From Burkholderiales bacterium (lineage in GTDB: Bacteria; Pseudomonadota; Gammaproteobacteria; Burkholderiales; Burkholderiaceae_C), in NCBI GenBank assembly GCA_003241965.1, contig QBMB01000001.1, positions 24,498 to 88,497 on the forward strand: a stretch of DNA of 64,000 bases, in the 5' to 3' direction. The notes beneath the pieces were generated by a model. That model did not search any database and was not told the DNA's origin. It saw nothing but the letters and a program-made list of their open reading frames with translations. The first letter of the stretch is position 1; every line of letters starts with the position of its first letter. Below are positions 18,479 to 61,117 of this stretch, piece after piece. Both the position numbers and the translations under genes were made by a program.

Positions 18479-18529
18479 GGACTGTAATGTCATGCAGTGG
18501 ACATGCCGATCAATTTTGGAGACCTGTCT

Positions 18530-28625: not shown

Positions 28626-29858
28626 CTACAGGTCGGCCTGTCCAGTCAGCAGTTGGCGCGCGACGGTGCGGCGCTGGATTTCGCCCGTACCGTCGGGTAT
28701 ACGCATCACGCGGGCGAAGCGGTAGCCCTCTTCCAGGCGCAGTTCGTTGGTCAGGCCCATGCCGCCGTGGATCTGGATGCTGCGGTCCATCACGCGCCCC
28801 AGCATCTCGGTCGAAAATGCCTTGACCATACTGACCTGTGCGTTGGCTGAGCGGCCGCTGTCCAGGCGCCAGGCACAGTTCTGAATCATGGTCTTGGCAG
28901 CGTAGATGTCCATCGCGCTGTCGGCCAGCATGAGCTGGATGGCCTGGTGCTCGGCAATGGGCACGCCAAAGGTTTTTCGCACCTTGGCGTAGTCCACCGC
29001 CTGGTCCAGCGCCCAGCGGGCCAAGCCCAGGCAGGATGCAGCCATGCCCATGCGCCCGGCGTTGACGCCGTCCATGGCCACCGCCAAGCCGTGCCCGACG
29101 TCGCCGAGCCGGTGGTCGTCGCGCACACGCACGCCGTCGAGCACGATGACGCCGGTGTCGCCGCCTAGGTGACCCATGGTGTTGATGATGCGCGGCACTG
29201 AAAAACCTGACGCGCGCGTGTCGACGAAGAAACCGGTGACACCACCCTTGTGGCGCGCTGCGGCTTCGGGGTCGGTCAGCGCGAACACCATGGCGTAATC
29301 GGCGTAGGGCGAGTTGGTTATCCACTGCTTGGTGCCGGTGAGCACCCATTCGTCACCGTCGCGCACGGCGCGGGTTTGCATGCCGAATACATCGGAGCCC
29401 GCATCGGGCTCGCTCAGACCAAAACACAGGGTCTTGTCGCCGCTGGCGATGTCGTCGCGATACTGCGCGAAGATGTCCGGCTTCAGATGCCGCAGCACAG
29501 GCGACAGACCGTTGGTGAAGGGCGAGGGCAGCACCACCGTCTGCACCAGCGGCTGGGCCGGACCCACGCAGTGGTTGAGGCTCTCCTGCACATGGGCCAT
29601 GACCTGCGCGCCCTGCCCGCCACCACCCAGTTTTTCGTCGCCGAACAAGGTGTAGAAGCCCAGTTCCGCGGAGCGCTTGCGCACCTGCTGGCGCAGCGCC
29701 AGCGCCTCGGGCACATAACGGCCGCTGGCGTCGAACAAAGTGCGTTCGCTGCCCAGCAGATCGTGGTGGCGCTGCTGCAGTGGCAGCACTTCGCGCTCCA
29801 CGAAGCGCAGCACTGCCTCGGCAATCGCCACGGTATCGGGATCGATGGTGAAGTCCAT
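28626..29858 (-). CDS. Acyl-CoA dehydrogenase family protein
   Basis: CFGLSEPDAGSDVFGMQTRA, WVLTGTKQWITNS, QIHGGMGLTNE, RIPDGTGEIQRRTVARQLL. Confidence 0.9.
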   Translation of the reverse strand: MDFTIDPDTVAIAEAVLRFVEREVLPLQQRHHDLLGSERTLFDASGRYVPEALALRQQVRKRSAELGFYTLFGDEKLGGGGQGAQVMAHVQESLNHCVGPAQPLVQTVVLPSPFTNGLSPVLRHLKPDIFAQYRDDIASGDKTLCFGLSEPDAGSDVFGMQTRAVRDGDEWVLTGTKQWITNSPYADYAMVFALTDPEAAARHKGGVTGFFVDTRASGFSVPRIINTMGHLGGDTGVIVLDGVRVRDDHRLGDVGHGLAVAMDGVNAGRMGMAASCLGLARWALDQAVDYAKVRKTFGVPIAEHQAIQLMLADSAMDIYAAKTMIQNCAWRLDSGRSANAQVSMVKAFSTEMLGRVMDRSIQIHGGMGLTNELRLEEGYRFARVMRIPDGTGEIQRRTVARQLLTGQADL

Positions 29859-29874: not shown

Positions 29875-30276
29875 CTACAACAGCCGGAACTTCGGCAGCG
29901 TGACCTCGTCGGTCACGTCGTCGTACTGCACCGTCACACGCTGGCCGATGCGCACCGCCTCCACATCGTCGGTGACGATGTTGGTCATCATGCGCGCGCC
30001 CTCGTCGAGGTCGATCACCGCCACCACGTAGGGGGTGTCGGCCTTGAAGGCCGGACCGGCCGGCCGGCGCGCGATGGTGTAGCTGTAAATGGTGCCGGTG
30101 CCGCGCGCATCGACCCATTCGACGGCGTCGGAATGGCAGTGCGGGCACAGGACGCGCGGATAGAAATGGTGCTTGCCACAGTCATGGCAGCGCTTGAGTG
30201 TCAGGCGATGTTGTTTCAGGGCGTCCCAATAGGAGCGGCTCTCGCCATCGATGACGGGCAGGGGTTTGTCGTACAT
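29875..30276 (-). CDS. DUF35 / Zn-ribbon OB-fold protein (thiolase-associated)
   Basis: CHDCGKHHFYPRVLCPHCHSD rubredoxin-like ribbon; start MYDKPLPV at 30276. Confidence 0.88.
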   Translation of the reverse strand: MYDKPLPVIDGESRSYWDALKQHRLTLKRCHDCGKHHFYPRVLCPHCHSDAVEWVDARGTGTIYSYTIARRPAGPAFKADTPYVVAVIDLDEGARMMTNIVTDDVEAVRIGQRVTVQYDDVTDEVTLPKFRLL

Positions 30277-30281
30277 GGTGT

Positions 30282-31451
30282 TCACCGGGTGGAGAGAATG
30301 CAAGTGGCACCGCTGGAGAGCGTGCCGCCGGTGCCGTGGACCAGCGCGGTCACGGCGTCCTGGATCTGGCGCGGGCCGCATTCACCGCGCAACTGGCGCA
30401 CCGCCTCGATCAGCAGGAAGATGCCGTACATGCCGGGGTGTGCGTAAGACAGACCGCCGCCGTTGGTGTTAAGCGGGAATACACCGCCCGGCGCGGTGCG
30501 CTGGTTGGCGACAAAGGCTCCACCCTCGCCACGCTTGCAAAAGCCCAGCGCTTCGAGCGTCAGCAGCACGGTGATGGTGAACGAGTCATAGACCTCAACC
30601 ACGTCAATGGCGTCATGCCGGATGCCCGCCATGGCAAAGGCGTCCCGACCGGCCACTTCGGCGGCCGTCAGGCGCGCTAGGTCGGGCATGGCGGCGATGG
30701 TCCAGTGGGTGTGTGATTCGCCGTAACCGCGCACGAACACCGGCTTGCGACCGAGCGCCTTGGCGTGCTCGGCGGTGGTCATGACCAACGCGCCACCACC
30801 GTCGGTGACCAGACAGATATCGAGCAGGTGCAGCGGGTCGGAGATCATCGTGCTCTGGAGCACATCCTCGATCGACAGCGGCTCGCGCATGGTGGCCGCC
30901 GGATTGAGCGCCGCCCACTTGCGCGTGGCCACCGCGATCTCGGCCAGGTTCTCGGAGGTGGTGCCATATTCGTGCATGTGGCGCTTGGCCGCCATCGCAT
31001 AGCCGCCCACCGGCGTGGGCATGCCCCAAGGCGTCTCGTACTGCATGGTCAGCACCGCCGGGCGCCCGGCGAGGTTGCGGCTCATCTCGCTCTTCTGCAG
31101 GCTACCGTAAGTGATCAGCGCCACCTCGCAGCGGCCAGCCTCGATGGCGGTGGCGGCATGCGCCACATGCGCCTCGAAGGCCGAGCCGCCGATGTTGGTG
31201 CCGTCGACGAAGCGCGGCGTAATCCCCAGGTACTCCGACAGCGTCACGGTCGGCAACTGGCCCGGACCGGGCACCCCCCACATGCCGGCGGTCAGCAACC
31301 CATCGACTTCGTGCATGGCGATGCCGGCGTCCTTCAAGGCGTCGCGGGCGACCAGCGCCTGGGCCTGCAGGACCGACATGGGCGCAAGGACCTTGCCGTC
31401 CTTCAGTGGCAGGTCGGCAACGCCGACGATCACAGCTTCTCGTTTTGTCAT
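30282..31451 (-). CDS. SCP2/lipid-transfer thiolase-like protein (non-canonical active site)
   Basis: VVEVYDSFTITVLLTLEALGFCKRGEGGAFV, NTNGGGLSYAHPGMYGIFLLIEA; next to DUF35. Confidence 0.87.
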   Translation of the reverse strand: MTKREAVIVGVADLPLKDGKVLAPMSVLQAQALVARDALKDAGIAMHEVDGLLTAGMWGVPGPGQLPTVTLSEYLGITPRFVDGTNIGGSAFEAHVAHAATAIEAGRCEVALITYGSLQKSEMSRNLAGRPAVLTMQYETPWGMPTPVGGYAMAAKRHMHEYGTTSENLAEIAVATRKWAALNPAATMREPLSIEDVLQSTMISDPLHLLDICLVTDGGGALVMTTAEHAKALGRKPVFVRGYGESHTHWTIAAMPDLARLTAAEVAGRDAFAMAGIRHDAIDVVEVYDSFTITVLLTLEALGFCKRGEGGAFVANQRTAPGGVFPLNTNGGGLSYAHPGMYGIFLLIEAVRQLRGECGPRQIQDAVTALVHGTGGTLSSGATCILSTR

Positions 31452-31573: not shown

Positions 31574-32056
31574 TCATGGAGCCGGAGCAGCAGGCAAAAA
31601 AGTAATGGTTTCAGTGAAGTCGGCAATGGTCTCGCCACGCTGATTGATCACCAAATGTTGCAACTCCATCAGGGTGTAGCCGCGCGAGGTCGTGGGGAGC
31701 AACCGGGCCTCCCCTTCGACATGAATGGTGTCGCCCGGAAACAGCGCACCGCGCAGGCGCGCCTGTACGCCGGTCATACCGCCGAACGGGCCGACTTCGT
31801 GGCCTTTGAGCGTGCCCTTGATGATGCCCGCCACGTAAGTCGCCAGCAGCCCCATGCCTAGCGAGATGACCATCGGGCCGGGCGCAAAGCGGCTGCGATG
31901 CGATCCGGTCATGTTCTCCCGGATGTACTCCATGTCGATGAAAAATGGTTCATGCAAGCCGACCACATTGACGAAGGTGACGATGTCGGTTTCGCTGATG
32001 GTGCGCCGGTGCGTCTTGAAATGATGCGACTTGGCACTGTCGGTCAGCTTGGTCAT
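31574..32056 (-). CDS. MaoC-like hot-dog dehydratase
   Basis: TISETDIVTFVNVVGLHEPFFID; GALFPGDTIHVEGEA; ~160 aa. Confidence 0.8.
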   Translation of the reverse strand: MTKLTDSAKSHHFKTHRRTISETDIVTFVNVVGLHEPFFIDMEYIRENMTGSHRSRFAPGPMVISLGMGLLATYVAGIIKGTLKGHEVGPFGGMTGVQARLRGALFPGDTIHVEGEARLLPTTSRGYTLMELQHLVINQRGETIADFTETITFLPAAPAP

Positions 32057-32186
32057 TTTGAAGTCCGGTGATGGATGGGGGGTGGTGATGGATGAAAGTG
32101 GTCCTCTGCGGGCAATCCCTCGATCGGCCTGTCCCGCTGTTTTGACAAAGTCGGGTTTTTATGTATCCAGCGCCGGAGAACAGCGG

Positions 32187-32996
32187 ATGAACCCAGCACC
32201 CTTGACTGGCGGTCCACTTCAGGGCCAGATCGCCCTCGTCACCGGTGCCACGGCCTTCATCGGTCGTGCCATAGCGCTGGAGTTGGCGCGGCGCGGCGCG
32301 CACGTGGTCGTCAACGGCCGCAATCCCGAAGCCGGGCAGGCGGTGATCAACGAGATCGCTGCGAACGGCTACAGCGCCACGTTTGAACAAGCCGACCTGA
32401 CCAATAGCGATGCGGTTCATGCCATGGTGGATCGAGTTGCCGAGCGCCACGGTCGCCTTGACATCCTGGTGGCCAGCGGCGCAGATGCCAGTGCCGACTT
32501 GCCGTTCTTTCGCCTTTTCAAGGAAATGCGCGACGGCGGCTTCGACAACTACATCCGCGCCCACTGGCTCACCCGCGTGTATGCGATCCAGGCGGCCGCC
32601 CGCGTCATGGCACTGCACGGTCGCGGCAAGATCGTCGCGGTGGGTACCGCCGCGGGCCGCGTGGCCACGGTCGGCGAATCTTTCATTGGCGGTGCCACAG
32701 GCGGCATGATGCAAATGTGCCGCGTGCTGGCACGTGAACAGGGGCGCGACGGCATTCGCGTCAACGCGGTGGCGATGAGCTACATCTGGGATGCCGAGCC
32801 GCGCTGGGGTCCGGGCTCGCCAGCGCTCGAAGACGGCCATGGTGCGGGCATGATCGAGAACCCGCGCAAGCGCATGCTGTTTCCAGTGCATTGCCAGAAC
32901 ATCGCCAACTCGGCGGCGTTCTTGGCCGGACCGGAGTCCGATGCCATCACCGGCCAGACGCTCAGCGTCAACGGCGGTTTGAGCACACCGGGCTGA
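32187..32996 (+). CDS. SDR family protein with non-canonical active site
   Basis: Rossmann VTGATAFIGRAIALELARRGAHVVVNGRN; C-terminal ITGQTLSVNGG; YxxxK position reads FIGGA. Confidence 0.85.
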   Translation: MNPAPLTGGPLQGQIALVTGATAFIGRAIALELARRGAHVVVNGRNPEAGQAVINEIAANGYSATFEQADLTNSDAVHAMVDRVAERHGRLDILVASGADASADLPFFRLFKEMRDGGFDNYIRAHWLTRVYAIQAAARVMALHGRGKIVAVGTAAGRVATVGESFIGGATGGMMQMCRVLAREQGRDGIRVNAVAMSYIWDAEPRWGPGSPALEDGHGAGMIENPRKRMLFPVHCQNIANSAAFLAGPESDAITGQTLSVNGGLSTPG

Positions 32997-33004
32997 CATG
33001 GCCA

Positions 33005-34519
33005 TCAGGCGCCACCGTGCGCGGCCTTGACGGCCGCGCGGTCAATGCTATCGGCACCGCCCAAGGGGAGTGCCGATACAAACACCACGTGCTTGGGTTT
33101 TTTGTAGCGTGCGATGCGACCGCCCACAAACTCGATCAACTCCTCGGCACTCAGCGTGCACCCCGCCTTCAGCACGCAGACAGCCTTGACCGCCTCGCCC
33201 CACTGAACGTCCGGCACACCGAGGACCACCACCTGCGCCAGCGCCGGGTGCTCCATAATGACCCGCTCGACTTCAGCCGGATAAACGTTCTCGCCCCCCG
33301 GCTTGATCAACTCCTTGGCCGGTGAACGCCCGCTGTACCAGAGGTAGCCCTCGGCATCGACGCGCCCCATGTCGCCCGTGTGGTGCCAGCCGTTGCGCAG
33401 CGTGAAGGCGTTGTCTGCTTCACAGCGCCAGTAGCCCTGGAACACCATCGGCCCCCGCACCACAATTTCGCCGGTGGCGCCTGTGGGCAACGGGCGGTCC
33501 AGTTCGTCCACCACCGCGACCATGTTCAGCGCGGTGGGACGCCCGGCGCTGCCGGGGCGCTCGTCAAATGGCGCCAGGCTGACCGAGCCCGAGGTCTCGG
33601 TCTGGCCGTAGGCACTCCAGAAGGTCGCCTGGGGACAGGTGGTGCGCAAGCGCGCGATGGTCTCGGGCACATCGATCCCCGACACCACGCGCAACCTGGC
33701 CAGTGAAGAGCCTTGGGCGGCTGCGGCGTCCAGCAGGGCACCCAGCATCGGTGGAAAGGTGCCGATCAGGCTGCCCCCGTCCTCGTCGATATGTTTGACC
33801 AGACTGGGCGGATCGAAACGTGTCAACAGCAGCGTCGCCCCGCCCGCCTGCTGCGTGGCCAGCATGAAGCCGATGGCGGCCACGTGAAACAGCGGCAAAA
33901 CGCCCAGATTGACGTCCGTCGGCGTCAGGTGCCAGGCCAGTTGCGTCTGCAGGCTGGCGGCAATCAGGCCGCGGTGCGAGAGCAGCGCGCCGCGCGGCCG
34001 ACCGCCCACGGCGGCGGTGTGGATGATGAGCAAACCGCTGTCGTCGGCCAGACCGGGCAGATCCGCCGCCTGCGTATCGCACTCCCGATACAGCTCACTG
34101 ACGGGTTGCCATGGCGCTGGCGCGGCGCCCAGCGTGTAGCGCAGCGTGTCGTCCAAACCGCGCTGCGGCAGCAGGGCCTGGAATTCATCGGCCACGATCA
34201 GCACCCGCGGTGCCACGTCCTCGATGACATAGGCGACCTCCTCGGCCGACAGCCGCCAGTTGATCGGCACCACGATCGCGCCCAACTGGGCTGCGGCGCC
34301 GAACAGATCGACGTATTCCAGGCAGTTGGGGGCCAGTATCGCCAGCCGGTCACCCTGGCCCACGCCTGCGTCCGCCAGACCGGCTGCCAGGCGCGCTGTG
34401 CGCCCGGCGTACTGGGCGTGCGTGATCCGCTGATTGCCGAACACCAGAGCGGTGTTCGATCCGTACAACCGCGCGTTGCGGTTGATGAGATCGTGCAGCG
34501 TAAAAGATCGCAAACTCAT
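33005..34519 (-). CDS. AMP-dependent acyl-CoA synthetase/ligase family protein (divergent motifs)
   Basis: GQTETSGSVSL, YLWYSGRSPAKELIKPGGENVYPAEVERVI; divergent A3 and A10 motifs. Confidence 0.88.
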   Translation of the reverse strand: MSLRSFTLHDLINRNARLYGSNTALVFGNQRITHAQYAGRTARLAAGLADAGVGQGDRLAILAPNCLEYVDLFGAAAQLGAIVVPINWRLSAEEVAYVIEDVAPRVLIVADEFQALLPQRGLDDTLRYTLGAAPAPWQPVSELYRECDTQAADLPGLADDSGLLIIHTAAVGGRPRGALLSHRGLIAASLQTQLAWHLTPTDVNLGVLPLFHVAAIGFMLATQQAGGATLLLTRFDPPSLVKHIDEDGGSLIGTFPPMLGALLDAAAAQGSSLARLRVVSGIDVPETIARLRTTCPQATFWSAYGQTETSGSVSLAPFDERPGSAGRPTALNMVAVVDELDRPLPTGATGEIVVRGPMVFQGYWRCEADNAFTLRNGWHHTGDMGRVDAEGYLWYSGRSPAKELIKPGGENVYPAEVERVIMEHPALAQVVVLGVPDVQWGEAVKAVCVLKAGCTLSAEELIEFVGGRIARYKKPKHVVFVSALPLGGADSIDRAAVKAAHGGA

Positions 34520-34533
34520 TTCAGGCTCCTGGT

Positions 34534-35400
34534 TCAGATTTCACCCGACGGGGACTGTGTCGACGGCATCACTTCGTGCAGAAACGCCGCCACGCTGGCG
34601 GCGAAGGCGTCGTTGGCATCACCAGCGATCATGTGACCAGCACCCTTCAGATCGATAAAACGCGCCCGCGGCAGGGTTTGCACCAGGGCGCGCGCATCTT
34701 CTTCGCTGATGACGTCGCTGCGCTGGCCGCGCAGCAGCAAAGTGGGCGCCTGCAGGCCGCGCAAAGCGCGCTCGTAGCCGTCCGCATCGCGCCGGTGGTT
34801 GTGGTTGGCCTCGCTCATCAGTTGCGGGTCCCAATGCCAATTCCAGAGACCTTGCGCATTCATGCGCAGGTTTTTCTTCAGCCCCTCAACCGGTCCTTCC
34901 ATGGGTCGGCCCCGGTAGGCGGCGATATGCTGGGCGGCCTCTTCAAGTGACGCAAAACCATCGGGCCGAGCCCGCATGAAGCGCACGATGCGCTCGACAC
35001 CGACTTCTTCCATGCGCGGCGCAATGTCCACCAGCACCAGCGCGTTGATCGGCGGCGCATCGGCGCGGCCCACGGTGGCCATGCTGATGAGGCCACCCAG
35101 CGAGGCACCGACCACCGCCAGCGGTGTGCCCAGTTCGCGCCAGATGCAGCACATGGTGTCGGCCAGCGTCTCGATGCGGTAATCGCCATCCTTGGCCCAG
35201 GCGCTGTCGCCGTGGCCCGGCAAGTCCAGCGCCACGGTGTACCAACCCGCATCGCCCAGCACCTTTGCCGCCTTGCCCCATGCATGGCGGGTTTGCCCGC
35301 CACCGTGCAGCAGCAACACCGTGGGCGCGCCGACTGGGCCATAGACGTCGGCCACCAGAGAGCCACCGGCAAAGCCGGGAAATTCCCGGCGCGTCGTCAT
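34534..35400 (-). CDS. Alpha/beta hydrolase
   Basis: VLLLHGGGQTRHAWGKAAKVL, DLPGHGDS, VGASLGGLISMA; start MTTRREF at 35400. Confidence 0.88.
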   Translation of the reverse strand: MTTRREFPGFAGGSLVADVYGPVGAPTVLLLHGGGQTRHAWGKAAKVLGDAGWYTVALDLPGHGDSAWAKDGDYRIETLADTMCCIWRELGTPLAVVGASLGGLISMATVGRADAPPINALVLVDIAPRMEEVGVERIVRFMRARPDGFASLEEAAQHIAAYRGRPMEGPVEGLKKNLRMNAQGLWNWHWDPQLMSEANHNHRRDADGYERALRGLQAPTLLLRGQRSDVISEEDARALVQTLPRARFIDLKGAGHMIAGDANDAFAASVAAFLHEVMPSTQSPSGEI

Positions 35401-36104
35401 GATGACGGCCCCACTTCCTGGGCGAAGTCGGCCCCGCTGTCCGCGGTCTGTCCCCAGTCGGCGAAGGTTTTGTAATGTGCGCGCCAAGAGGCCAGCAGTT
35501 CATCGCGCGGCAAGTCGGCGTAAGTGCCGTGGTCGTGCACATACTCCATGTGCCTGCGGCCGCTGACATCGAATTCATGAAAGACCGAATCGGCGCGGCC
35601 ATCGAATTCCAGTGGATGGATACCGGCCTTCTCGCACAAGGAGCGGTTGAAGGCGGGCGTGGCCTTGAGCCACTGCCCGTCAACCCACAGCTCGGTGTAA
35701 CCGTGAAAGACGAACAGATCGGTGCCCATCATGTCTTGCAGGCGCTTGCTGCTCAGGTGGTTGCGAACGTCGGCATAGCCCAGCCGTGCCGGCACGCCCA
35801 GGACGCGGGCTGCCGCTGCCAGCAGCGCCGCCTTGGGCACGCAAAAGCCACGCCCGGCCTCGATCACGCGACTGCCCTTCAAACCCTCGACCGTGGTGTC
35901 AAAGCAGTAGGGGTCGTAGAGAAACTCGTCACGCACGGCGTAATAGAGCTTGACTGCGATCTCGCGCGGCGCCATGGCAGGGTCGGCCACCCGGTGCGCG
36001 AACGCGATCACCGCCGAGTGATCGCTGTCCACGTAGCGGCCGGGCGCGAGATAAGCCGACGGATCGTTCGAAGGGGTGATTGGGGTTTGCATAGTCACTT
36101 CCAT
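35397..36104 (-). CDS. Transglutaminase-like (papain-fold) domain protein
   Basis: GRGFCVPKAALLAAAARVLGVPARLGYADVRNHL, FVFHGYTELWVDGQWLKATPAFN. Confidence 0.82.
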   Translation of the reverse strand: MEVTMQTPITPSNDPSAYLAPGRYVDSDHSAVIAFAHRVADPAMAPREIAVKLYYAVRDEFLYDPYCFDTTVEGLKGSRVIEAGRGFCVPKAALLAAAARVLGVPARLGYADVRNHLSSKRLQDMMGTDLFVFHGYTELWVDGQWLKATPAFNRSLCEKAGIHPLEFDGRADSVFHEFDVSGRRHMEYVHDHGTYADLPRDELLASWRAHYKTFADWGQTADSGADFAQEVGPSS

Positions 36105-36105
36105 G

Positions 36106-36996
36106 TCATTGATCCTTGACGCTCAGGCACTTTGGCGGTTCGGCCAGCGCAAAGCCATTGAAGGGTTTGGATCGATCATGAGCCTGCAATTTCCAGGTCG
36201 GTCGGGCATTGGGCACGCCACCATCGACCCGAATGCAAGAACCCGTGATGAAAGCCGCCGCCTCGCACAGCAAAAACACAATCGCCGCCGAAATCTCGGC
36301 CTCGGTGCCATAACGTTGCAGCGGCACCTTGGTCTTCAGGCTGCGCAGTTCGGCCTGCATCTCGGGGCTGTAGGTATCAAAGCCGCTGCTGGCAATCCAG
36401 CCCGGTGCCACGGCGTTGACACGCACGCCGGCGCAGGCCCATTCGCAAGCCGCCGTCTCGGTGAACGACAGCATGCCGGCACGCGCCGCACCGCTGTGCG
36501 CCATGGTCGGCATGCCGCCCCAGATGTCGGCGATGATGTTGACAATGGCGCCGCCATGGAACTCCATGGACTGGTTGAAGGCTTCGCGCGCCACCAGGAA
36601 GCCGCCGGTGAGGTTGCTGCGCACCACCGCATCCCAGCCCTTCAGGCTGATGTCCTTGACCGGCTGCGGGTACTGGCCACCCGCGTTGTTGACGAGACCA
36701 TCGATCTTGCCGTGCTGTGCGATCACGTCGGCGATCATGGCCTTGACGCCCGCCTCGTCGCGAATGTCGCAAGCGTGGATACTGGCCCGGCCGCCGGCCT
36801 GCGTGATTTCAGCTTGCACAGCTTCCAGCTTCTCGACGCGGCGACCGACAAGCGCGACGCTGGCCCCTAGGTTGGCCAGTTCGTGCGCGGTGCAGCGGCC
36901 AATGCCACTGCCACCACCGGTGACGATAACGGTTTGACCAACAAACAGGCCAGGGCGGAACACGGAACGGTAGGTAGATTGAGACATGATGGACAT
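36106..36996 (-). CDS. SDR family enoyl-CoA reductase, PECR-like
   Basis: VTGGGSGIGRC; HSGAARAGMLSFTETAACEWACAGVRVNAVAPGWI resembles peroxisomal trans-2-enoyl-CoA reductase. Confidence 0.82.
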   Translation of the reverse strand: MSIMSQSTYRSVFRPGLFVGQTVIVTGGGSGIGRCTAHELANLGASVALVGRRVEKLEAVQAEITQAGGRASIHACDIRDEAGVKAMIADVIAQHGKIDGLVNNAGGQYPQPVKDISLKGWDAVVRSNLTGGFLVAREAFNQSMEFHGGAIVNIIADIWGGMPTMAHSGAARAGMLSFTETAACEWACAGVRVNAVAPGWIASSGFDTYSPEMQAELRSLKTKVPLQRYGTEAEISAAIVFLLCEAAAFITGSCIRVDGGVPNARPTWKLQAHDRSKPFNGFALAEPPKCLSVKDQ

Positions 36997-37011
36997 TTCC
37001 TTTCTGCACCC

Positions 37012-37446
37012 TCAGGCTCGCAGCATGAAATTGCCGTGGCCAAGGGCGATGGGCTTATCGGGGCTGGATTGCCATGCCTGGATGCGCAGGTTCGCCACAC
37101 GCTGGCCCAGCTTGACCATCACGACGTTGGCATAGGTGTCCTGCGGACGGCCCGAGCGCAGGTAATCAATGTTGAAATCGATGGTCTTGGGCAAGTCCCG
37201 GCTGTCCATGTGCCACAGCAGGTAGAACAATCCGGCGCATTCCAGAAACCCTCCGGTGGCACCGCCATGCAGAGCCGGCAGCATGGGGTTGCCTATCAGT
37301 TTTTCCTGGAAAGGCAAGACGCAGGTGAACTCCTCGCCCTTGACATCAATGCGCAGGTCCAGAAAACGCGCAAAGGGCACCGCCTGGATCACTTCGCTCC
37401 AGTCACCCTGGGCGCGCGCATGGTCAATTTGTTCGGTCCATTTCAT
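37012..37446 (-). CDS. PaaI-type hot-dog thioesterase
   Basis: MLPALHGGATGGFLECAG; TIDFNIDYLRSGRPQDTYA; ATG at 37446. Confidence 0.82.
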   Translation of the reverse strand: MKWTEQIDHARAQGDWSEVIQAVPFARFLDLRIDVKGEEFTCVLPFQEKLIGNPMLPALHGGATGGFLECAGLFYLLWHMDSRDLPKTIDFNIDYLRSGRPQDTYANVVMVKLGQRVANLRIQAWQSSPDKPIALGHGNFMLRA

Positions 37447-37919
37447 CGTGGCACATCCTCGTTGCGCAATACCGGTCGCCCGGAAGTAAACATGTAAATG
37501 CCGACTGCGGTGGCTATTGGGTCGTCCAACGTGTCGTGGTAAGCGGCGCCACGGACGAACGCCAGTTCTGCAGTCAACTTGTAGCAAACGGCTCCCCCCA
37601 GAATCGCCCGCCCGGGCGTCGCGGGCTTGAGGTAGTCGATGCGCAAGTCCAGCGTGGCCATCGGCCGTATCTCCGGCAGCTTGACGAAAATCGCGAATCC
37701 GAGCGCGGCGTCGAGCAGCGCAGTGATGACTCCGCCATGCAAAACCCTGGTCTGCGGATCGCCCACCAGTGCTTCCTGGTACTCGACTTTGAGCACGCAC
37801 CAGTCGGTGTGCACCGCGTGCGGCAGGAAGCCCAGTTCGCGGTTATACGGCGACACATGGGCGAACTTTTGCCATCGCTTGGCGATTTCTTCTTCTTTGA
37901 TGATGTGTGTTTCTGTCAT
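37443..37919 (-). CDS. PaaI-type hot-dog thioesterase
   Basis: TRVLHGGVITALLDAALGFAIF; TLDLRIDYLKPATPGRAI. Confidence 0.85.
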   Translation of the reverse strand: MTETHIIKEEEIAKRWQKFAHVSPYNRELGFLPHAVHTDWCVLKVEYQEALVGDPQTRVLHGGVITALLDAALGFAIFVKLPEIRPMATLDLRIDYLKPATPGRAILGGAVCYKLTAELAFVRGAAYHDTLDDPIATAVGIYMFTSGRPVLRNEDVPR

Positions 37920-38983
37920 CTCGACATGTCTCCAGACAAGGTGAGGGTGGGCTCTTCGCTGGCCGCCGTCACCGGATACCAGCGGGTCGCGGCTGGCGTT
38001 TCTTCATGGCGCACATGGCCGGCACGCTGCAGCCACAGCAGGTGCGCCAGGGTTTCGCCCATGGCCAGGTAAGCATGCAGCGGGTCGCTCTGCGCGCCAT
38101 AAACGGCGTAGCCGAGTTCGGTGGCATTCATGCCCCCCTCGCCCAGACGCGCCAAGAACTTGCGCAGTGCCCTCTGGTGGTGCGCCACCAGTCCATGCGC
38201 GCGCTCGACCCCGGCGTGGTAGACGCCGTGGTGGGCTGGCAAGACGTACTCGATGTCCAGTCCCGCAATGGTGCGCAGGCTATCCAGGTAACGTGGCAGC
38301 GGATCGGTTTCGCCATAGGGCCAGACACCAATGTTGGGTGTGATGCGCTCGAGCAACTGGTCGCCCGTGAGCAGCAATTTCAGCTTGGGCTCGTACAAGC
38401 AGATTTGGGCAATGCTGTGTCCACCAAGCACCAGCACGTCGAAAGCATGATCGCCGATGTGCAAGGTCTGGCCGGCTTCGAGCGGCTCGACGCGAGTCGG
38501 CACGGCACAGGCCATATTGCTTTGCAACACCCCGCCCACCACCTGATGCGCATCTTCCGGCGCCACCCCATGGCGGCACATGAAGTCGATACAGTAAGCG
38601 CGGTCATCGATGCTGACCACGTGCGTCTGCCGCGCCACCGCCACCTCCTCCTCGCGCATCAGGATCGGAGCCCCGGTGCGCTCGTGCAGCCACACCGCCA
38701 GCCCGAGGTGGTCGGGGTGGTGGTGCGAGACGATGATGCGCGTCAAGCCAGCCGCCAGCGGGCCTTCCAATGCGCGCAGCCACAAGGCCCGCGCCGCCTC
38801 GCAATCGGCACCCGTGTCGAATAGGCACCAACCCTCGCTGTCGCGAATCAGGTAGATGTTGACGTGGTCGATGCCATAGTCCACCGGCAGCGTGAACATC
38901 AGGATGCCGGGCAGGACCTCCTTCAGAGGCAGCTCGACCAACCCGTCAATGACTGAAGTAGCTCGAGAGGTGCTCATGTTCAC
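37916..38983 (-). CDS. MBL-fold metallo-hydrolase
   Basis: LFDTGAD, IVSHHHPDHLGLAVWL (HxHxDH-type), VLGGHSIAQICLY, LLTGDQLL. Confidence 0.87.
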   Translation of the reverse strand: MNMSTSRATSVIDGLVELPLKEVLPGILMFTLPVDYGIDHVNIYLIRDSEGWCLFDTGADCEAARALWLRALEGPLAAGLTRIIVSHHHPDHLGLAVWLHERTGAPILMREEEVAVARQTHVVSIDDRAYCIDFMCRHGVAPEDAHQVVGGVLQSNMACAVPTRVEPLEAGQTLHIGDHAFDVLVLGGHSIAQICLYEPKLKLLLTGDQLLERITPNIGVWPYGETDPLPRYLDSLRTIAGLDIEYVLPAHHGVYHAGVERAHGLVAHHQRALRKFLARLGEGGMNATELGYAVYGAQSDPLHAYLAMGETLAHLLWLQRAGHVRHEETPAATRWYPVTAASEEPTLTLSGDMSR

Positions 38984-40121
38984 AACCGTTTCGCCACTTC
39001 TTCGAGCATGACCTCGGTGGCACCGCCACCGATAGCTTGGACGCGTGCGTCGCGCACCATACGCTCGATCGCGGCCTCGCGCATGTAGCCGAAGCCGCCG
39101 TGGAACTGCTGGCAGTCATAGACCACATCGTTGACCAGCTCGCCGCACAGCGCCTTGACCATCGACACCTCCTTGACGCAGTCGCGCCCCTGCGCGTCCA
39201 GCCAGGCCGCGTGGTAAACCAACTGGCGGGCCGCCGCCACCTGCGCTGCCCGCATGGCCATGCGCTGGCGAATCGCCTGCTTGTCCCACAGCGTGGCGCC
39301 GAAGGCCTTGCGCTCGCGCACATAGGCCAGCGTCAGCTCGATCGCGCGTGCGGCCTCGCCCATCACCTGCGCACCTAGCACCATGCGCTCGTTCTGGAAG
39401 TTGCGCATGATCTGGTAGAAGCCCTTGTTCTCTTCGCCCAGCAGGTTGGCGGACGGCACGCGGCAGTCCTCGAACACCAGCTCGGCGGTGTCGCTGCACA
39501 GCCAGCCGCTCTTGTTGAGCGCACGCCCGACCCGAAAACCCGGGGTGCCCTTCTCGACGATGAAGATCGAGATACCGCGCGAACCCTTGGCGCTCGGATC
39601 GGTCTTGGCGGCGACAAAGTACACGTCGCCATGCACGCCGTTGGTGATGAACATCTTGCTTCCGTTGATGACCCAGTGCTCACCGTCGCGCACCGCGCGT
39701 GTGCGGATGCCGGCCACGTCGGAGCCGGCATCGGGCTCGGTGACCGCCACAGCGCAGATCTTCTCGCCACCGATGATGGGCGGCAGGTAGCGTGCGAGCT
39801 GCTCTGGCGTGCCAAAGTTGGCCAGGTGCGGCGAGGCCATGTCGGTGTGCACCATCACCGTCACGGCGAAGCCGCCGTAAGTGGAACGGCCGAGTTCTTC
39901 GGCCAGGATGGCGCTGTACACGGTGTCGAGTTTCGAGCCGCCGTACTTTTCGTCGTAGCGTATGCCCAGATAGCCCAGTTCGCCCATCTTGCGCAGCAGC
40001 GCGCGCGGCACCATGCCCTGATCTTCCCAGAGCGCGGCGTGCGGCACTACTTCCTGCTCGACAAAGCGGCGCAGGTTGTCCCGGAACTGCCGGTGTTGCT
40101 CGTCAAAATAAATCGGCTCGT

Positions 40122-40125
<4 letters not shown>
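38980..40125 (-). CDS. Acyl-CoA dehydrogenase family protein
   Basis: CAVAVTEPDAGSDVAGIRTRA, WVINGSKMFITNG, QQFHGGFGYMRE, IGGGATEVMLEEVAKRL. Confidence 0.9.
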
Positions 40126-42146
<2,021 letters not shown>

Positions 42147-42171
42147 CAGTCGCACGCCTTCATGCCAACAC

Positions 42172-42969: not shown

Positions 42970-42979
42970 AGAGGTTCTC

Positions 42980-44575: not shown

Positions 44576-44599
44576 CCTGTTTCGTCCTTTGAAGCGCGG

Positions 44600-45190: not shown

Positions 45191-45192
45191 AT

Positions 45193-46182: not shown

Positions 46183-46200
46183 CGCTTGTACCTCCTTCGA

Positions 46201-48198: not shown

Positions 48199-48264
48199 GC
48201 CCAACTCCTGCGGCGAAGTGGGTCATCAAGACGGTGTGGATGCGTTGCATGGCTGGCGTCCTGG

Positions 48265-49872: not shown

Positions 49873-49912
49873 ATGTGATTGCGCCTATTCGCGAGACAAA
49901 GCATTCAGCCGC

Positions 49913-55341: not shown

Positions 55342-56508
55342 ATGACTACCACCCACGACAGCGAACGCGCTGAACAACTGACCATGCTGCGCGAAAGCGC
55401 GCTAAGTTTCGTCACCAAAGAATCACCACTCAACCGTGCCCGCGCCCTGCGCCAACAGGTGCCGGGCTACGACCGCCGCTTCTGGAGCGCCCTGGCCGAG
55501 CAGGGCTGGACCGGGCTGCTGGTGCCCGAACAATTGGGCGGCTACGCCCAGGGTTTCGCTGAGATGGCCGAGGTGGCGGCCGCCCTGGCTTCTCAGGTCG
55601 CGCCCGAACCGGTGGTGCCGGTGCTGGTGTTTGCCGGCCGGCTGCTGTCCCATGTGGGTGCCACCGAGCTATCGATGCGTCTCTTGACCGAACTCGCCGA
55701 GGGTCGCACGCTACCCGCCGTGGCCTGGCAGGAAGATGTAACCGGCGCGAAAGACCAGCCCGGTCTGGCCGCGACCCGGCTGGAGCGCCAGGGCGACTCC
55801 CTGCTGATACATGGCTACAAGCGCCATGTGCGCCCCGGTGCCGGGGCCGACGGCTACATCGTCAGCGCCACCAACCCACAAGGTCTGGTCCTGGTGTGGG
55901 TGCCGGCAGATGCATCCGGCCTTACCCTGTCGAGCCAGCCGCTGGCCGACGGCAGCTATGCAGCACAGCTCAACTTGAACAGCGTTCGCCTGCCCGCCAG
56001 CCACCTGCTGGCCGAAGGGGCCGCCGCCGCGGCCGCGCTGACCCGCGCCTACGACGAAACCCTGGTACTGGCCAGCGTTGAACTGCTGGCCCTTGTGCGC
56101 AGCATGCTGACCATGACACAAGACTACCTGCGAACGCGGATCCAGTTCGGCAAGCCGATAGGCAGCTTCCAGTCACTGCAGCACCGCACTGTGGACCTGT
56201 TGATTCAGCAGGAACTGACTGCCAGCGTGGTGACGCAGGCTCTGGCCCTGCTAGATGACCCGGCCGCCGACGCCAGCGCGCGCTCTGCCCTGGCAAGCCG
56301 CGTCAAGTCGCGCGCGTCGGATGCGGGGCTGCAGGTGGCGCGGGAGGCGGTGCAACTGCACGGCGCCATCGGCGTCACCGACGAATACGACCTGGGCCTG
56401 TATCTGCAGCGTGCTCTGGTGTTGGCCGCCTGGCTGGGCAATGGCAACCAGCAGCGCCGCCGCTACGCCAACCTCACCCAAAACGCCACCGCGCAGGAGC
56501 ACGCATGA
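55342..56508 (+). CDS. Acyl-CoA dehydrogenase-like subunit (probable partner of the next gene)
   Basis: LAEQGWTGLLVPEQLGGYAQGFAEM, TRIQFGKPIGSFQSLQHRTVDLLI, LHGAIGVTDEYDLGLYLQRA. Confidence 0.87.
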   Translation: MTTTHDSERAEQLTMLRESALSFVTKESPLNRARALRQQVPGYDRRFWSALAEQGWTGLLVPEQLGGYAQGFAEMAEVAAALASQVAPEPVVPVLVFAGRLLSHVGATELSMRLLTELAEGRTLPAVAWQEDVTGAKDQPGLAATRLERQGDSLLIHGYKRHVRPGAGADGYIVSATNPQGLVLVWVPADASGLTLSSQPLADGSYAAQLNLNSVRLPASHLLAEGAAAAAALTRAYDETLVLASVELLALVRSMLTMTQDYLRTRIQFGKPIGSFQSLQHRTVDLLIQQELTASVVTQALALLDDPAADASARSALASRVKSRASDAGLQVAREAVQLHGAIGVTDEYDLGLYLQRALVLAAWLGNGNQQRRRYANLTQNATAQEHA

Positions 56509-57674
56509 ACACCACCGCCTCCACTTCCACTGACTGGAATGCGTTCGACAACGCCAGCTTTCGCGCCACACTGCGCGAATTCTTTGAAGAACATTTCCCC
56601 AGCGAATGGCGCTACCCGCAACGGCGCCTGCGCTGGTCCGAAATCGGCCCTTGGTACCTGAGGCTTTCAGAAAAAGGCTGGGTCGCGCCGAGTTGGCCCA
56701 CGCAGTACGGCGGCATGGGACTCTCACCCGAGAAACTCATCATCTTCATTGAAGAGCAGGAGCGCTGGGGCGTGGCGCGCGCGCCCGACATGGGCATCAC
56801 CATGGTCGGCCCGCTGCTGATCAACCATGGCAACGACGCCCAGCGCGCCTACTACCTGCCCAAGATCATTTCCGGTGAGCACATCTGGTGCCAGGGTTAC
56901 TCGGAACCCAATTCGGGCTCCGACCTGGCCAGTCTGCGCACCGAGGCGGTGGTCGATGGCAACGATTTTATCGTCAACGGGCAAAAGACCTGGACCACGC
57001 TGGCACAGGACGCCACCCACTTTTTCCTGCTGGTGCGCACCGACAAATCGGCCAAGAAGCAGGAAGGCATCAGCTTTTTGCTGGTCGACATGAACACGCC
57101 GGGCATCACGGTGCGCCCCATCCGCAACATCGCGGGCAGCGAAGACTTCTGCGAGGTCTTCCTGGAAAACGTGCGCGTGCCGCGCACCAGCATCGTCGGC
57201 GAGCTTAACAAGGGCTGGACCATCGCCAAGGCGCTGCTCGGATTCGAGCGCATCTTCCTGGGCAGCCCCAAACAAAGCCAGTACGCGCTGGCGCGCGTGC
57301 AGGAAGCCGCGCAGCGCCTCGGCCTGTTCGAAGACACCGGCTTCGTGGACCGCTACACCAAGCTGGCGCTGGACGTGTCCGACCTGGGCGCGCTCTATGG
57401 CCGTTTCATCGATCAAGTCAAGCGCGGCGAAACCCTGGGACCCGATGTCTCGATGCTCAAGCTGTTCGCCACCGAAACCTATTCGCGGCTGGCCGACCTG
57501 CTGGTCGATGTCATGGGATCGAGTGGCGGCACGCCCGGCTCCACAGCCCTGCCCGGTGGCAAAACCGATGCGTTGACCACCTTCTACAATGCGCGCCCGG
57601 CCACCATCTACGGCGGCAGCAACGAAGTGCAACGCAACATCCTGGCTTCCAGCGTGCTGAAGTTGCCGTCATGA
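56505..57674 (+). CDS. Acyl-CoA dehydrogenase family protein
   Basis: WCQGYSEPNSGSDLASLRTEA, FIVNGQKTWTTLA, ATIYGGSNEVQRNILA. Confidence 0.9.
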   Translation: MNTTASTSTDWNAFDNASFRATLREFFEEHFPSEWRYPQRRLRWSEIGPWYLRLSEKGWVAPSWPTQYGGMGLSPEKLIIFIEEQERWGVARAPDMGITMVGPLLINHGNDAQRAYYLPKIISGEHIWCQGYSEPNSGSDLASLRTEAVVDGNDFIVNGQKTWTTLAQDATHFFLLVRTDKSAKKQEGISFLLVDMNTPGITVRPIRNIAGSEDFCEVFLENVRVPRTSIVGELNKGWTIAKALLGFERIFLGSPKQSQYALARVQEAAQRLGLFEDTGFVDRYTKLALDVSDLGALYGRFIDQVKRGETLGPDVSMLKLFATETYSRLADLLVDVMGSSGGTPGSTALPGGKTDALTTFYNARPATIYGGSNEVQRNILASSVLKLPS

Positions 57675-58078
57675 GCGCATCGGGCTATCCGGCATTTGAC
57701 GGCTGCGGCCCGGACGCGCTGTTCGCGCAAGGGTTGGCGCAAGGTCGCTTTAAAATCCAATGTTGCAGCGCCTGCGGTCAGCATGTGTTTTATCCGCGCG
57801 CGCTGTGCACCCATTGCGGCTCGGCCCAGCTCGACTGGATTGAACCCAGCGGGGTCGGCTGCGTCTATTCCAGCACCACGGTGCGCCGCAAGCCGCAAGC
57901 CGGTGGCGACTACAACGTGGCGCTGGTGGACCTAGCCGAAGGGCCGCGGCTGATGTCGCGCATCGATGGCATTGCACCCGACCAGGTGCGCATCGGCATG
58001 CGGGTGCAGGCGCGCGTGATCGACGATCCTGCCAAGGGCAAGTTGCTGGTCTTCATCCCCGAGGGCGCCACACCATGA
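57671..58078 (+). CDS. DUF35 / Zn-ribbon OB-fold protein (thiolase-associated)
   Basis: CCSACGQHVFYPRALCTHCGSAQ ribbon; GVGCVYSSTTVRR; 4-nt overlap with the preceding gene. Confidence 0.88.
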   Translation: MSASGYPAFDGCGPDALFAQGLAQGRFKIQCCSACGQHVFYPRALCTHCGSAQLDWIEPSGVGCVYSSTTVRRKPQAGGDYNVALVDLAEGPRLMSRIDGIAPDQVRIGMRVQARVIDDPAKGKLLVFIPEGATP

Positions 58079-58139: not shown

Positions 58140-59297
58140 ATGAGCACCATCTCTCCCCTGCGCGGCGCGGCCGCCATCGTGGGTGCCAGCCTGGGCGGCG
58201 TGCCCATGGCCCCCGGTCGCAGCGCGCTCGAAATTCTGGGCGAAGCGGTGCACGGCGCGCTGGCCGATGCAGGCTTGAAGCTGTCCGATGTCGATGGCCT
58301 GTTCACCGGCTCGTCCTATCACTTCCTTGCAGGTTTATCGGTGGCCGAATATCTGGGTATCCATCCCAAGTTCTGCGAAGCCACGATGGTCGGCGGCTCG
58401 TCTTATGTGGGCCACCTGCTCACTGCGGCCATGGCGCTGCACACCGGCCAGTGCGACGTGGCGCTCATTTGCTACGGCAGCAACCAGGGCTCGGGCTTCG
58501 GCAAGCTCAAGTCGATGGCCGAAACGCCCTTGTACGAGGCGCCATACGAGCCACGCTACCCGATCTCCAGCTACGCCCTGGCCGCAGCGCGCCACATGCA
58601 CCAATACGGCACCACGCGCGAGGACCTGGCGCACATCGCGGTGGCAGCGCGCCAGTGGGCACAACTCAATCCGCTGGCCCACACGCGAGATCCACTCAGC
58701 ATCGGACAGGTGCTGGCTTCGCGGCTGGTGAGCGATCCGCTGTCGGTGCTCGATTGCTGCCTGGTCACCGACGGCGGCGGCGCCCTGGTGCTGGTGCGCA
58801 GCGAGCGGGCACGCGACTTTCCCAAACCGCCGGTCTATGTCCTAGGCACGGCTGCGGCCACCTGGCACCGCCAGATCGGCTCCATGCCCGACCTGACTGT
58901 CACCGCAGCCGCCGAGTCCGGGCCGCGCGCCTTTGCCATGGCCGGTCTGGCACCGAAGGACGTGGACGTGCTGGGGTTGTACGACGCCTTCACCATCAAC
59001 ACGCTGCTGTTCCTCGAAGACCTGGGCTTTTGCGCCAAGGGAGAAGGTGGCGCTTTCGTGCGCAACGGGCGCATCGCACCGGGGGGCGATTTGCCGGTCA
59101 ATACCAATGGCGGCGGTCTGTCGTGCTGTCACCCTGGCATGTACGGCATGTTCCTGCTGATCGAGGCCGTGCAGCAACTGCGCGCCGAGGCCGGCGACCG
59201 CCAGGTACCGGGCGCAGAGATCGCCCTGTGTCACGGCAACGGCGGCGTTCTCTCCAGCCAGGTGACGGCCCTGCTGGGCACGGCCGCCACCGTCTGA
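58140..59297 (+). CDS. SCP2/lipid-transfer thiolase-like protein (non-canonical active site)
   Basis: GLYDAFTINTLLFLEDLGFCAKGEGGAFV, NTNGGGLSCCHPGMYGMFLLIEA; paralog of 30282-31451. Confidence 0.87.
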   Translation: MSTISPLRGAAAIVGASLGGVPMAPGRSALEILGEAVHGALADAGLKLSDVDGLFTGSSYHFLAGLSVAEYLGIHPKFCEATMVGGSSYVGHLLTAAMALHTGQCDVALICYGSNQGSGFGKLKSMAETPLYEAPYEPRYPISSYALAAARHMHQYGTTREDLAHIAVAARQWAQLNPLAHTRDPLSIGQVLASRLVSDPLSVLDCCLVTDGGGALVLVRSERARDFPKPPVYVLGTAAATWHRQIGSMPDLTVTAAAESGPRAFAMAGLAPKDVDVLGLYDAFTINTLLFLEDLGFCAKGEGGAFVRNGRIAPGGDLPVNTNGGGLSCCHPGMYGMFLLIEAVQQLRAEAGDRQVPGAEIALCHGNGGVLSSQVTALLGTAATV

Positions 59298-59327: not shown

Positions 59328-60248
59328 ATGAGCAAGGGCAACATGCTGCAAGACAAAGTCGCCGTGGTCACCGGCGCGGGCCGGGGCATCGGCCGCGACA
59401 TCGCACTGATGATGGCGGCGCAAGGCGCCAAGGTGGTGGTCAACGACATCGGCGCCTCGGTCGGCGGCGAAGGCAATGACGCCAGCCACGGCCAGCAGGT
59501 GGTCAACGAGATCAAGGCCGCTGGCGGCCAGGCCGTTCTCAGCACCGACAGCGTCTCGACCTGGCCCACGGCCAACCGCATCATCGAATGCGCGGCCGAC
59601 ACCTTCGGGCGCATCGACATCGTCGTCAACAACGCCGGCATCCTGCGCGACCGCCTGTTCTTCAACATGTCGCCCGAGGAGTGGAGCGCCGTCATCGACG
59701 TGCACCTCAACGGCAGCTTCTTCACTTCGCGCGCCGCCGCCCCGCACTTCAAGACGCAGAAGTCGGGTGCCTATGTGCACATGACTTCCACGTCCGGCCT
59801 GATCGGCAACCTGGGCCAGGCCAACTACGCCGCTGCCAAGCTGGGCATCGTGGCCATGTCGCGCCACATCGCCGGCGACATGCAACGCTACAACGTGCGT
59901 TCCAACTGCATCTCGCCGTTCGCCTGGAGCCGCATGATCGGCGCCATCCCCACCGACACACCCGAGCAGCAGGCACGCGTGGAAAAACTAAAAAAACTCG
60001 GTACCGAGCAGATTGCGCCCATGGCCACCTTCCTGGCCAGCGATGCCGCAGCCGACGTCACGGCCCAGATCTTCGCCGTGCGCGGCAACGAGATTTTCCT
60101 CATGAGCCAGTCGCGCCCGATCCGCGGCATGCACACCGCCGAGGGCTGGACACCCGAGACCATCGCCGAGCGCGTGTTGCCCGCCATGAAGCAGAACTTC
60201 TATCCGCTGGAGAGCTCGAACATCGTGTTCTCCTGGGATCCCGTCTGA
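59328..60248 (+). CDS. SDR, MFE-2/HSD17B4-type 3-hydroxyacyl-CoA dehydrogenase-like
   Basis: VVTGAGRGIGRDIALMMAAQGAKVVVNDIGASVGGEG, NNAGILRDRLFFNM, QANYAAAKLGIVAMSR. Confidence 0.88.
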   Translation: MSKGNMLQDKVAVVTGAGRGIGRDIALMMAAQGAKVVVNDIGASVGGEGNDASHGQQVVNEIKAAGGQAVLSTDSVSTWPTANRIIECAADTFGRIDIVVNNAGILRDRLFFNMSPEEWSAVIDVHLNGSFFTSRAAAPHFKTQKSGAYVHMTSTSGLIGNLGQANYAAAKLGIVAMSRHIAGDMQRYNVRSNCISPFAWSRMIGAIPTDTPEQQARVEKLKKLGTEQIAPMATFLASDAAADVTAQIFAVRGNEIFLMSQSRPIRGMHTAEGWTPETIAERVLPAMKQNFYPLESSNIVFSWDPV

Positions 60249-60259
60249 CGTCATCTGCC

Positions 60260-61117
60260 ATGGCGATCAACTACGAGAAACTGATGGCATGGCCGTTCGA
60301 GGACGTTCGCCATCGCTACACCCAGCGCGACACCATGCTCTACGCACTGGGCGTGGGCCTGGGCACCGACCCGACCAACGAGACCGAGCTGCGCTTTGTC
60401 TATGAAAAGAACCTGCTGGCGCTGCCCACGCTGCCGGTGGTGCTGGGCTATCCCGGCATGTGGCTCAAGGACCCGGCCACCGGCGTTGACTGGGTGCGGC
60501 TGGTGCATGGCGAACAGGGCTTGCGCCTGCACCGGCCGGTGCCGCCCGAGGGTGAAGTGATCGGGCGCACGCGGGTGAGCCAGATCATCGACAAGGGGCC
60601 GGACAAGGGGGCTCTGATCTACACCGAGCGCACGGTGACGGACGCCACCAGCGGCGAACTGCTGGCCACGCTGACCTCGACCACCTTCTGCCGCGCCGAC
60701 GGTGGCTTTGGCGGCCCGGCCGGGCCGGTCAAAACCGTGCATGAGCTGCCCACGCGCGCGCCTGATCACAGCGACGATTTCGCCACCCAGCCGCGTGCCG
60801 CGCTGATCTACCGCCTCTCGGGCGACTACAACCCGCTGCACGCCGAACCCGCGGTGGCAAGCGCCGCTGGTTTCAAGCAGCCCATCCTGCACGGCCTGGC
60901 CACCTACGGCATCGCCGGCTGGGCACTCACCCAGCGCGTCTGCGGCGGCGACCCGAGCGCCCTGCAGTCGCTGGATGTGCGTTTTTCGTCACCCGTTTAC
61001 CCCGGCGAAACGATACGCACCGAGCTCTGGGTGGATGGCAAGGTCGTTTCCTTTCGCGCCCGCGCCGTCGAACGCGACATCGTCGTGCTGAACAACGGAC
61101 GCGCCGAGCTGCGCTGA
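60260..61117 (+). CDS. MaoC-family 2-enoyl-CoA hydratase 2-like
   Basis: ATG 60260; RLSGDYNPLHAEPAVASAAGFKQPILHGLATYGIA hydratase-2 motif. Confidence 0.88.
   Translation: MAINYEKLMAWPFEDVRHRYTQRDTMLYALGVGLGTDPTNETELRFVYEKNLLALPTLPVVLGYPGMWLKDPATGVDWVRLVHGEQGLRLHRPVPPEGEVIGRTRVSQIIDKGPDKGALIYTERTVTDATSGELLATLTSTTFCRADGGFGGPAGPVKTVHELPTRAPDHSDDFATQPRAALIYRLSGDYNPLHAEPAVASAAGFKQPILHGLATYGIAGWALTQRVCGGDPSALQSLDVRFSSPVYPGETIRTELWVDGKVVSFRARAVERDIVVLNNGRAELR

Follow-up and report, generated by a model that had tools for sequence, protein, structure and literature searches.

A cysteine-less thiolase-fold protein and its DUF35 partner as a candidate retro-aldolase in a clade apart from Ltp2 and Sal

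Does a thiolase-like protein that lacks the thiolase cysteines still cleave 3-ketoacyl-CoA by thiolysis, as its database name implies, or does it cut beta-hydroxyacyl-CoA by retro-aldol chemistry together with the DUF35 protein encoded beside it? The question is raised by two ORFs of 389 amino acids (P0001) and 133 amino acids (P0002) in a window of 64,000 nucleotides from a Burkholderiales bacterium. The start of P0002 lies five bases past the stop of P0001.

30282..31451, minus strand: P0001, thiolase-fold, cysteine-less putative retro-aldolase, with Tyr288 (YDSF), His338 (HPGMYG), and Asn86 and Gly88-Gly89 at the former nucleophile loop
29875..30276, minus strand: P0002, putative DUF35 partner subunit, with a zinc ribbon (C30-x2-C33-x10-C44-x2-C47) and an OB fold

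Pfam assigns Thiolase_C_1 to P0001 (E 8e-63), and zf-ChsH2 (E 3e-15) and OB_ChsH2_C (E 3e-24) to P0002. Relatives of P0001 in Polaromonas (93-96% identity) and in Roseobacteraceae (75%) retain the gene pair, and Hydrogenophaga sp. IBVHS1 (L028) encodes an identical protein. P0001 and P0002 are a real gene pair and more than a chance arrangement; the original prediction of a DUF35/thiolase-like pair, made from the letters of the sequence, is borne out by both ORFs, their domains, and this retention. NCBIfam PRK06158 names P0001 'acetyl-CoA acetyltransferase' with a score above the cut-off. This label is probably wrong for the pair.

In an alignment with solved relatives, the column of the thiolase nucleophile cysteine is occupied by Asn86 of P0001. 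The cysteine-free string quoted for this region in the original prediction, DGTNIGGSAFEAHVA, matches residues 83-97 exactly, and the prediction named a conserved cysteine at the aligned nucleophile position as evidence that would speak against it. Cysteine was found at this position in no family member, either among 104 pattern-selected sequences or among 34 from a whole-genome search. Where SCP2-type thiolases have HDCF, P0001 has YDSF (Tyr288-Asp289-Ser290-Phe291), and the HPxG-type thiolase histidine is retained as His338 in HPGMYG. All 104 pattern-selected sequences share Tyr288, Asp289, Phe291, and His338, and the column of residue 290 contains Ser or Ala, rarely His. Because the pattern by which this set was partly picked includes the His338 motif, the residue check was repeated on the 34 members found without pattern selection, all of which have Tyr288 and His338. 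The second string that had been quoted, VHGTGGTLSS, is likewise exact (residues 371-380), and the CxGGG cysteine is indeed absent there. This absence, however, cannot serve as a sign of an aldolase as had been proposed, because L008, a cysteine-bearing SCP2-type thiolase of the same genome (NNNCSTGS, HDCF, HPLGATG), also lacks the CxGGG cysteine. The second cysteine of the SCP2-type class sits in HDCF; thus, judged from the alignment, the informative positions are the N-terminal cysteine (Asn86 here) and the HDCF cysteine (Ser290 here).

The top solved relatives of P0001 by sequence are the uncharacterised 4u4e, then CtSal (E 1.3e-58) and TcLtp2 (E 2.8e-44). A confident single-chain model predicted for P0001 (pLDDT 89.6, pTM 0.92) matches 9myr and 6ok1, among folds of known function, at TM 0.86-0.89. 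P0002 finds its best solved matches in the DUF35 chains of the CtSal and TcLtp2 complexes (E 6.6e-27 and 1e-25); DUF35 chains from thiolase complexes trail by at least ten orders of magnitude (E 3e-14 for that of the archaeal acetoacetyl-CoA thiolase and 5e-5 for BbsA). Taken separately, the two subunits lead to the same pair of complexes, CtSal/Shy and TcLtp2/ChsH2, both of them steroid side-chain aldolases with a bound DUF35 protein. The resemblance to the Ltp2/ChsH2-DUF35 architecture that had been suggested therefore holds for the fold and for the best functional relatives of both subunits, which include TcLtp2/ChsH2; it does not hold for the clade, which is P0001's own, or for the place of Tyr344, which is taken by His338.

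The known systems differ from the P0001 locus in several ways. TcLtp2-ChsH2(DUF35), a steroid C3 side-chain aldolase (6ok1; Aggett 2019, as cited in PMC12502768), has in common with it the thiolase fold, the absent nucleophile cysteine, a DUF35 protein with a C4 zinc ribbon, the tyrosine of a YDxF motif, and an adjoining acyl-CoA dehydrogenase and MaoC hydratase. At approximately 32% identity by structure alignment, Tyr294 of TcLtp2 (YDHF, the base) is aligned with Tyr288 of P0001 (YDSF), but the acid Tyr344 corresponds to His338, the two proteins belong to separate clades, and DUF35 and MaoC are unfused at the P0001 locus. CtSal-Shy(DUF35), a bile acid C5 side-chain aldolase (9myr; PMC12329534), shares the thiolase fold, Tyr302 (Tyr288 in P0001), the DUF35 partner, and a MaoC hydratase. 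Of its YDCY motif (Tyr302, Cys304) P0001 keeps the tyrosine, whereas Cys304 is replaced by Ser290 and Gln352 by His338; the zinc site is C3H1 in Shy but C4 (C-x2-C-x10-C-x2-C) in P0002, and DUF35 is a separate protein here. IpfD and IpfE of ibuprofen degraders (pIBU218; PMC9195938) also combine a cysteine-less thiolase-fold protein (YDAF) with a DUF35 partner. IpfD is required for ibuprofen use and ibuprofen-CoA cleavage, and retro-aldol cleavage of a dihydrodiol-CoA has been proposed (PMC9195938). It is 36% identical to P0001, has a tyrosine (GFYLQG) where P0001 has His338, a feature shared with Ltp2, and lies on the same side of the tree as Ltp2; in its pathway the hydroxyl group stems from a dioxygenase instead of a dehydrogenase and a hydratase (PMC9195938). 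Since IpfD has YDAF and no Sal cysteine, a thiolase-fold enzyme without this cysteine is probably capable of retro-aldol chemistry. The four zinc-ribbon cysteines are lost in IpfE (L109:13228-13626, minus strand). DitF of resin-acid degraders was considered as well; the papers searched give its name and knock-out effect.

Within the clade of P0001, the sole structure is 4u4e, a structural-genomics entry for a putative thiolase of Sphaerobacter thermophilus (E 8e-125), which has YDSF and HPGMYG and lacks the cysteine. The literature searched yielded no function for 4u4e, no report of PRK06158 or 4U4E as a thiolase, and no biochemistry on any member of the clade. DUF35 is no proof of aldolase activity, because it also partners true, cysteine-bearing thiolases of the same fold, namely BbsAB (benzoylsuccinyl-CoA thiolase; HDAF-type motif in BbsB) and the archaeal acetoacetyl-CoA thiolase. 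The DUF35 chains of these thiolases are far less closely related to P0002 than those of the two aldolases. In Comamonas testosteroni, gene disruption has shown a set of dehydrogenase, MaoC hydratase, thiolase-fold aldolase, and DUF35 protein, with DUF35 being indispensable for aldolase activity (PMC12502768).

Which residues might then catalyse the reaction? TcLtp2 relies on Tyr294 and Tyr344 for catalysis, and CtSal on Tyr302 and Cys304, with Gln352 at the place of Tyr344 (PMC12329534). Replacement of Cys304 by Ser or Ala inactivates CtSal (PMC12329534), and as the P0001 family has Ser or Ala at this place, P0001 is not just another Sal and its catalytic acid must differ from that of CtSal. 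With His338 and Ser290 at the places of Tyr344 and Cys304, P0001 is neither an Ltp2 nor a Sal. The invariance of Tyr288 and His338 in the members examined leads us to propose that the family uses a Tyr288/His338 pair instead of Tyr/Tyr (Ltp2) or Tyr/Cys (Sal). Since His338 is also the thiolase histidine, however, its conservation may be ancestral, by descent from thiolases.

In an unrooted tree of 54 rows, alongside which a wider tree was also built, the cysteine-bearing thiolases lie on one side, and CtSal, Ltp2, IpfD, and the P0001 family on the other (support 100/99). The P0001 family forms its own group with the same support, and Ltp2, LTP_pIBU218, and L006 constitute a separate clade. L005, a long-branched cysteine-less paralogue, falls on the thiolase side. 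At least 590 loci are related to the P0001/P0002 pair, and PRK06158 and its relatives occur in Pseudomonadota, Bacillota, Chloroflexota, and Actinomycetota. The family is widespread and forms a clade distinct from both Ltp2 and Sal; as probable aldolases, its members would belong to the thiolase-fold/DUF35 kind that is already known. A plasmid of the haloarchaeon Halostagnicola larsenii XH-48 carries a relative at 50% identity (NZ_CP007057.1:307117-308244), and so the family extends to archaea. A scan of viral contigs found one partial locus, L013 (IMGVR_UViG_3300033181_000085), with a family member and DUF35 close to the contig end, which probably is bacterial flanking or plasmid DNA.

Of 100 family loci examined, 98 have a DUF35 gene no more than 1.5 kb away, and the pairwise distances of P0001- and P0002-type proteins correlate with an r of 0.77, part of which is due to shared species history. 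A plain C4 pattern is missing from 26 of the 104 DUF35 neighbours. Eight thiolase-like proteins were found in the own genome, six without the cysteine and two with it (L007, L008), along with exactly six DUF35 genes; all six cysteine-less paralogues adjoin a DUF35 gene and neither cysteine-bearing thiolase does. Four of these paralogues with DUF35 neighbours are encoded elsewhere: L003, L005, and L006 on contig C133 and L004 on contig C89. L004 has YDCF, as in TbSLP and near Sal's YDCY, and a histidine at the 338 place; L006 is Ltp2-like in appearance; and L003 has YDSF with HPANRGG. The wording of the original prediction, which called the pair a minus-strand copy, had implied a plus-strand one, and such a pair, approximately 50% identical, was located in the window within a second gene cluster:

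55342..57674, plus strand: two tandem acyl-CoA dehydrogenase genes, which may encode an alpha2beta2 pair, preceding the second DUF35 and aldolase genes
57671..58078, plus strand: DUF35 partner of the second copy (Pfam domains)
58140..59297, plus strand: second thiolase-fold putative aldolase (YDAF, HPGMYG)
59328..61117, plus strand: SDR (59328-60248) and MFE-2-type MaoC hydratase (60251-61117), after the second aldolase

P0001 and P0002 themselves stand in an operon in the order CoA ligase, MaoC hydratase, aldolase, DUF35, acyl-CoA dehydrogenase:

28626..29858, minus strand: acyl-CoA dehydrogenase, immediately downstream of DUF35
31574..32056, minus strand: MaoC-type (FAS1_DH_region) hydratase, proposed source of beta-hydroxyacyl-CoA, with an 83% identical ORF upstream in Polaromonas (L009)
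33005..34519, minus strand: AMP-forming acyl-CoA ligase of the same operon
34534..37919, minus strand: rest of the operon upstream, coding for an alpha/beta hydrolase, a transglutaminase-like protein, an SDR, and two hotdog (4HBT) thioesterases, in an order that matches plasmid 2 of Polaromonas JS666

The same operon is found on plasmid 2 of Polaromonas JS666 (L009), and in Pseudosulfitobacter and relatives the genes for MaoC, acyl-CoA dehydrogenase, aldolase, and DUF35 are consecutive. A transglutaminase-like protein (PF01841; 35397-36104, minus strand) is part of this CoA-ester catabolic operon, with no obvious task there, and is present on the Polaromonas plasmid, too. No FadB-type 3-hydroxyacyl-CoA dehydrogenase is encoded in the P0001 operon. 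Among 60 well-flanked family loci, a MaoC hydratase is near 20, a FadB-type dehydrogenase near five, and both together near none; FadB-type dehydrogenases are nearby in nine of 99 family loci, where all counts cover family loci only and the FadB-type query was the dehydrogenase domain alone. At seven loci (L021, L024, L082, L084, L086, L098, L102) a FadB-type dehydrogenase lies within 1 kb and a MaoC hydratase was not found; these may have another chemistry or substrate. Both clusters of the window contain SDRs (36106-36996 and 59328-60248), which could make 3-ketoacyl-CoA. A further SDR ORF of 321 amino acids (32031-32996, plus strand), on the opposite strand within the operon region, was excluded from the mechanism proposed below.

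The tree, the absent cysteines, the DUF35 pairing, and an operon that encodes ligase, dehydrogenase, and MaoC hydratase while lacking a FadB-type dehydrogenase make it the best reading, and in our estimate a likely one, that a P0001/P0002 complex cleaves a beta-hydroxyacyl-CoA by a retro-aldol reaction. The preference for retro-aldol chemistry over thiolysis in the original prediction thereby gains support from phylogeny, partner protein, missing cysteines, and neighbourhood, from which we infer complex formation, reaction, residue roles, and substrate alike. P0001 and P0002 would form a thiolase-fold aldolase complex like Ltp2-ChsH2(DUF35) and Sal-Shy(DUF35), with P0002 completing the substrate cleft. 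The CoA ligase (33005-34519) would first convert an acid into its CoA ester, in which the acyl-CoA dehydrogenase (28626-29858) would introduce a double bond; addition of water by the MaoC protein (31574-32056) would then give a 3-hydroxyacyl-CoA. The beta-carbon of this intermediate is probably fully substituted, which would make oxidation to the 3-ketone impossible. P0001 would then cut the bond between C-alpha and C-beta. In this step Tyr288 would deprotonate the beta-hydroxyl group and a ketone or aldehyde would be released, while the Gly88-Gly89 and Gly373-Gly376 loops would hold the acyl-CoA enolate through their backbone amides. His338, which occupies the position of Ltp2 Tyr344 and of the thiolase histidine, would donate a proton to yield acetyl- or propionyl-CoA.

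Other readings have to be weighed against this one. That P0001 is an ordinary 3-ketoacyl-CoA thiolase, as labelled, would agree with the thiolase fold, the kept HPxG-type histidine, and the PRK06158 score, but we regard it as highly improbable: the nucleophile cysteine is absent in every member, HDCF has become YD[S/A]F, the tree sets P0001 apart from the cysteine-bearing thiolases (100/99), and the genome has separate enzymes of that type in L007 and L008. The loss of both thiolase cysteines might also indicate a catalytically dead protein that persists as a CoA-binding or scaffold subunit. This is very unlikely, as members from several phyla all retain Tyr288, Asp289, Phe291, His338, and the glycine loops, and the positions of Tyr288 and His338 are catalytic in TcLtp2, that of Tyr288 also in CtSal. 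Aldol reactions are reversible, the only point for a synthetic role in which an acyl-CoA is added to a ketone or aldehyde; the catabolic neighbours (ligase, acyl-CoA dehydrogenase, leucine/isovalerate-type carboxylases, HMG-CoA lyase) leave little room for it, and we consider it scarcely credible.

Somewhat more weight, though still that of an unlikely case, is due to other C-C or C-O chemistry on CoA thioesters, such as decarboxylation, retro-Claisen hydrolysis of 3-ketoacyl-CoA, or PhlABC-like acyl transfer. The SDRs near both copies and the FadB-type enzymes near nine family loci could supply 3-ketoacyl-CoA; in the clade around P0001, however, the neighbour is more often a MaoC hydratase. 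Acyltransferases of the PhlC type depend on a cysteine, which counts against PhlABC-like transfer, and PDB 9skm uses a PhlC-type C88S variant as an inactive control. TbSLP, a cysteine-poor relative, slowly decarboxylates malonyl-CoA, but CtSal does not (PMC12329534).

If P0001 and its kin are aldolases, hydration and retro-aldol cleavage would replace hydration, oxidation, and thiolysis, and many pathways for branched or alicyclic acids could be redrawn; the pair is probably misnamed in hundreds of genomes. A Tyr/His pair, if true, would be a further reuse of the thiolase active site, comparable with Ltp2 (Tyr/Tyr) and Sal (Tyr/Cys), and such enzymes would be of use for aldol biocatalysis on CoA esters. 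The broader proposal, that the PRK06158 family and its relatives are aldolases of non-steroid substrates, hidden by their annotation, which use a third kind of active site (Tyr/His) to shorten beta-branched acyl-CoAs by acetyl or propionyl units and thus bypass blocked beta-oxidation, is a serious possibility that we hold tentatively.

The substrate of P0001 is probably not a steroid. A steroid was considered and rejected, as no HsaD-type hydrolase near the family cut-off was found in the own genome (best score 101.8 bits versus a cut-off of 400) and the operon is joined instead to leucine/isovalerate-type carboxylases and HMG-CoA lyase; a steroid substrate, which the original prediction's comparison with a steroid side-chain aldolase might suggest, is thus unlikely. 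The joined genes lie upstream in the same direction (38980-50875, minus strand) and code for two biotin-dependent acyl-CoA carboxylases, an HMG-CoA lyase, two enoyl-CoA hydratases, and an acyl-CoA dehydrogenase:

40122-44575 and 46201-49872, minus strand: complete biotin-dependent acyl-CoA carboxylase gene pairs
45193-46182, minus strand: HMG-CoA lyase

This set resembles what we take to be a module for the breakdown of leucine/isovalerate or acyclic terpenes. From this context we would guess that the substrate is most likely a beta-methyl-branched or an alicyclic acid. Between the carboxylase genes, a short SDR-like ORF (44658-45209, minus strand) has a frame-disturbed look between its start and the YGASK motif and possibly is a decayed gene. 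The left third of the window contains ferredoxin reductase-like and cytochrome P450-like ORFs and two Rieske-type oxygenase-like genes; those at 52-2005, 11915-12949, and 18497-19804, all on the plus strand, are separate oxidative catabolic modules.
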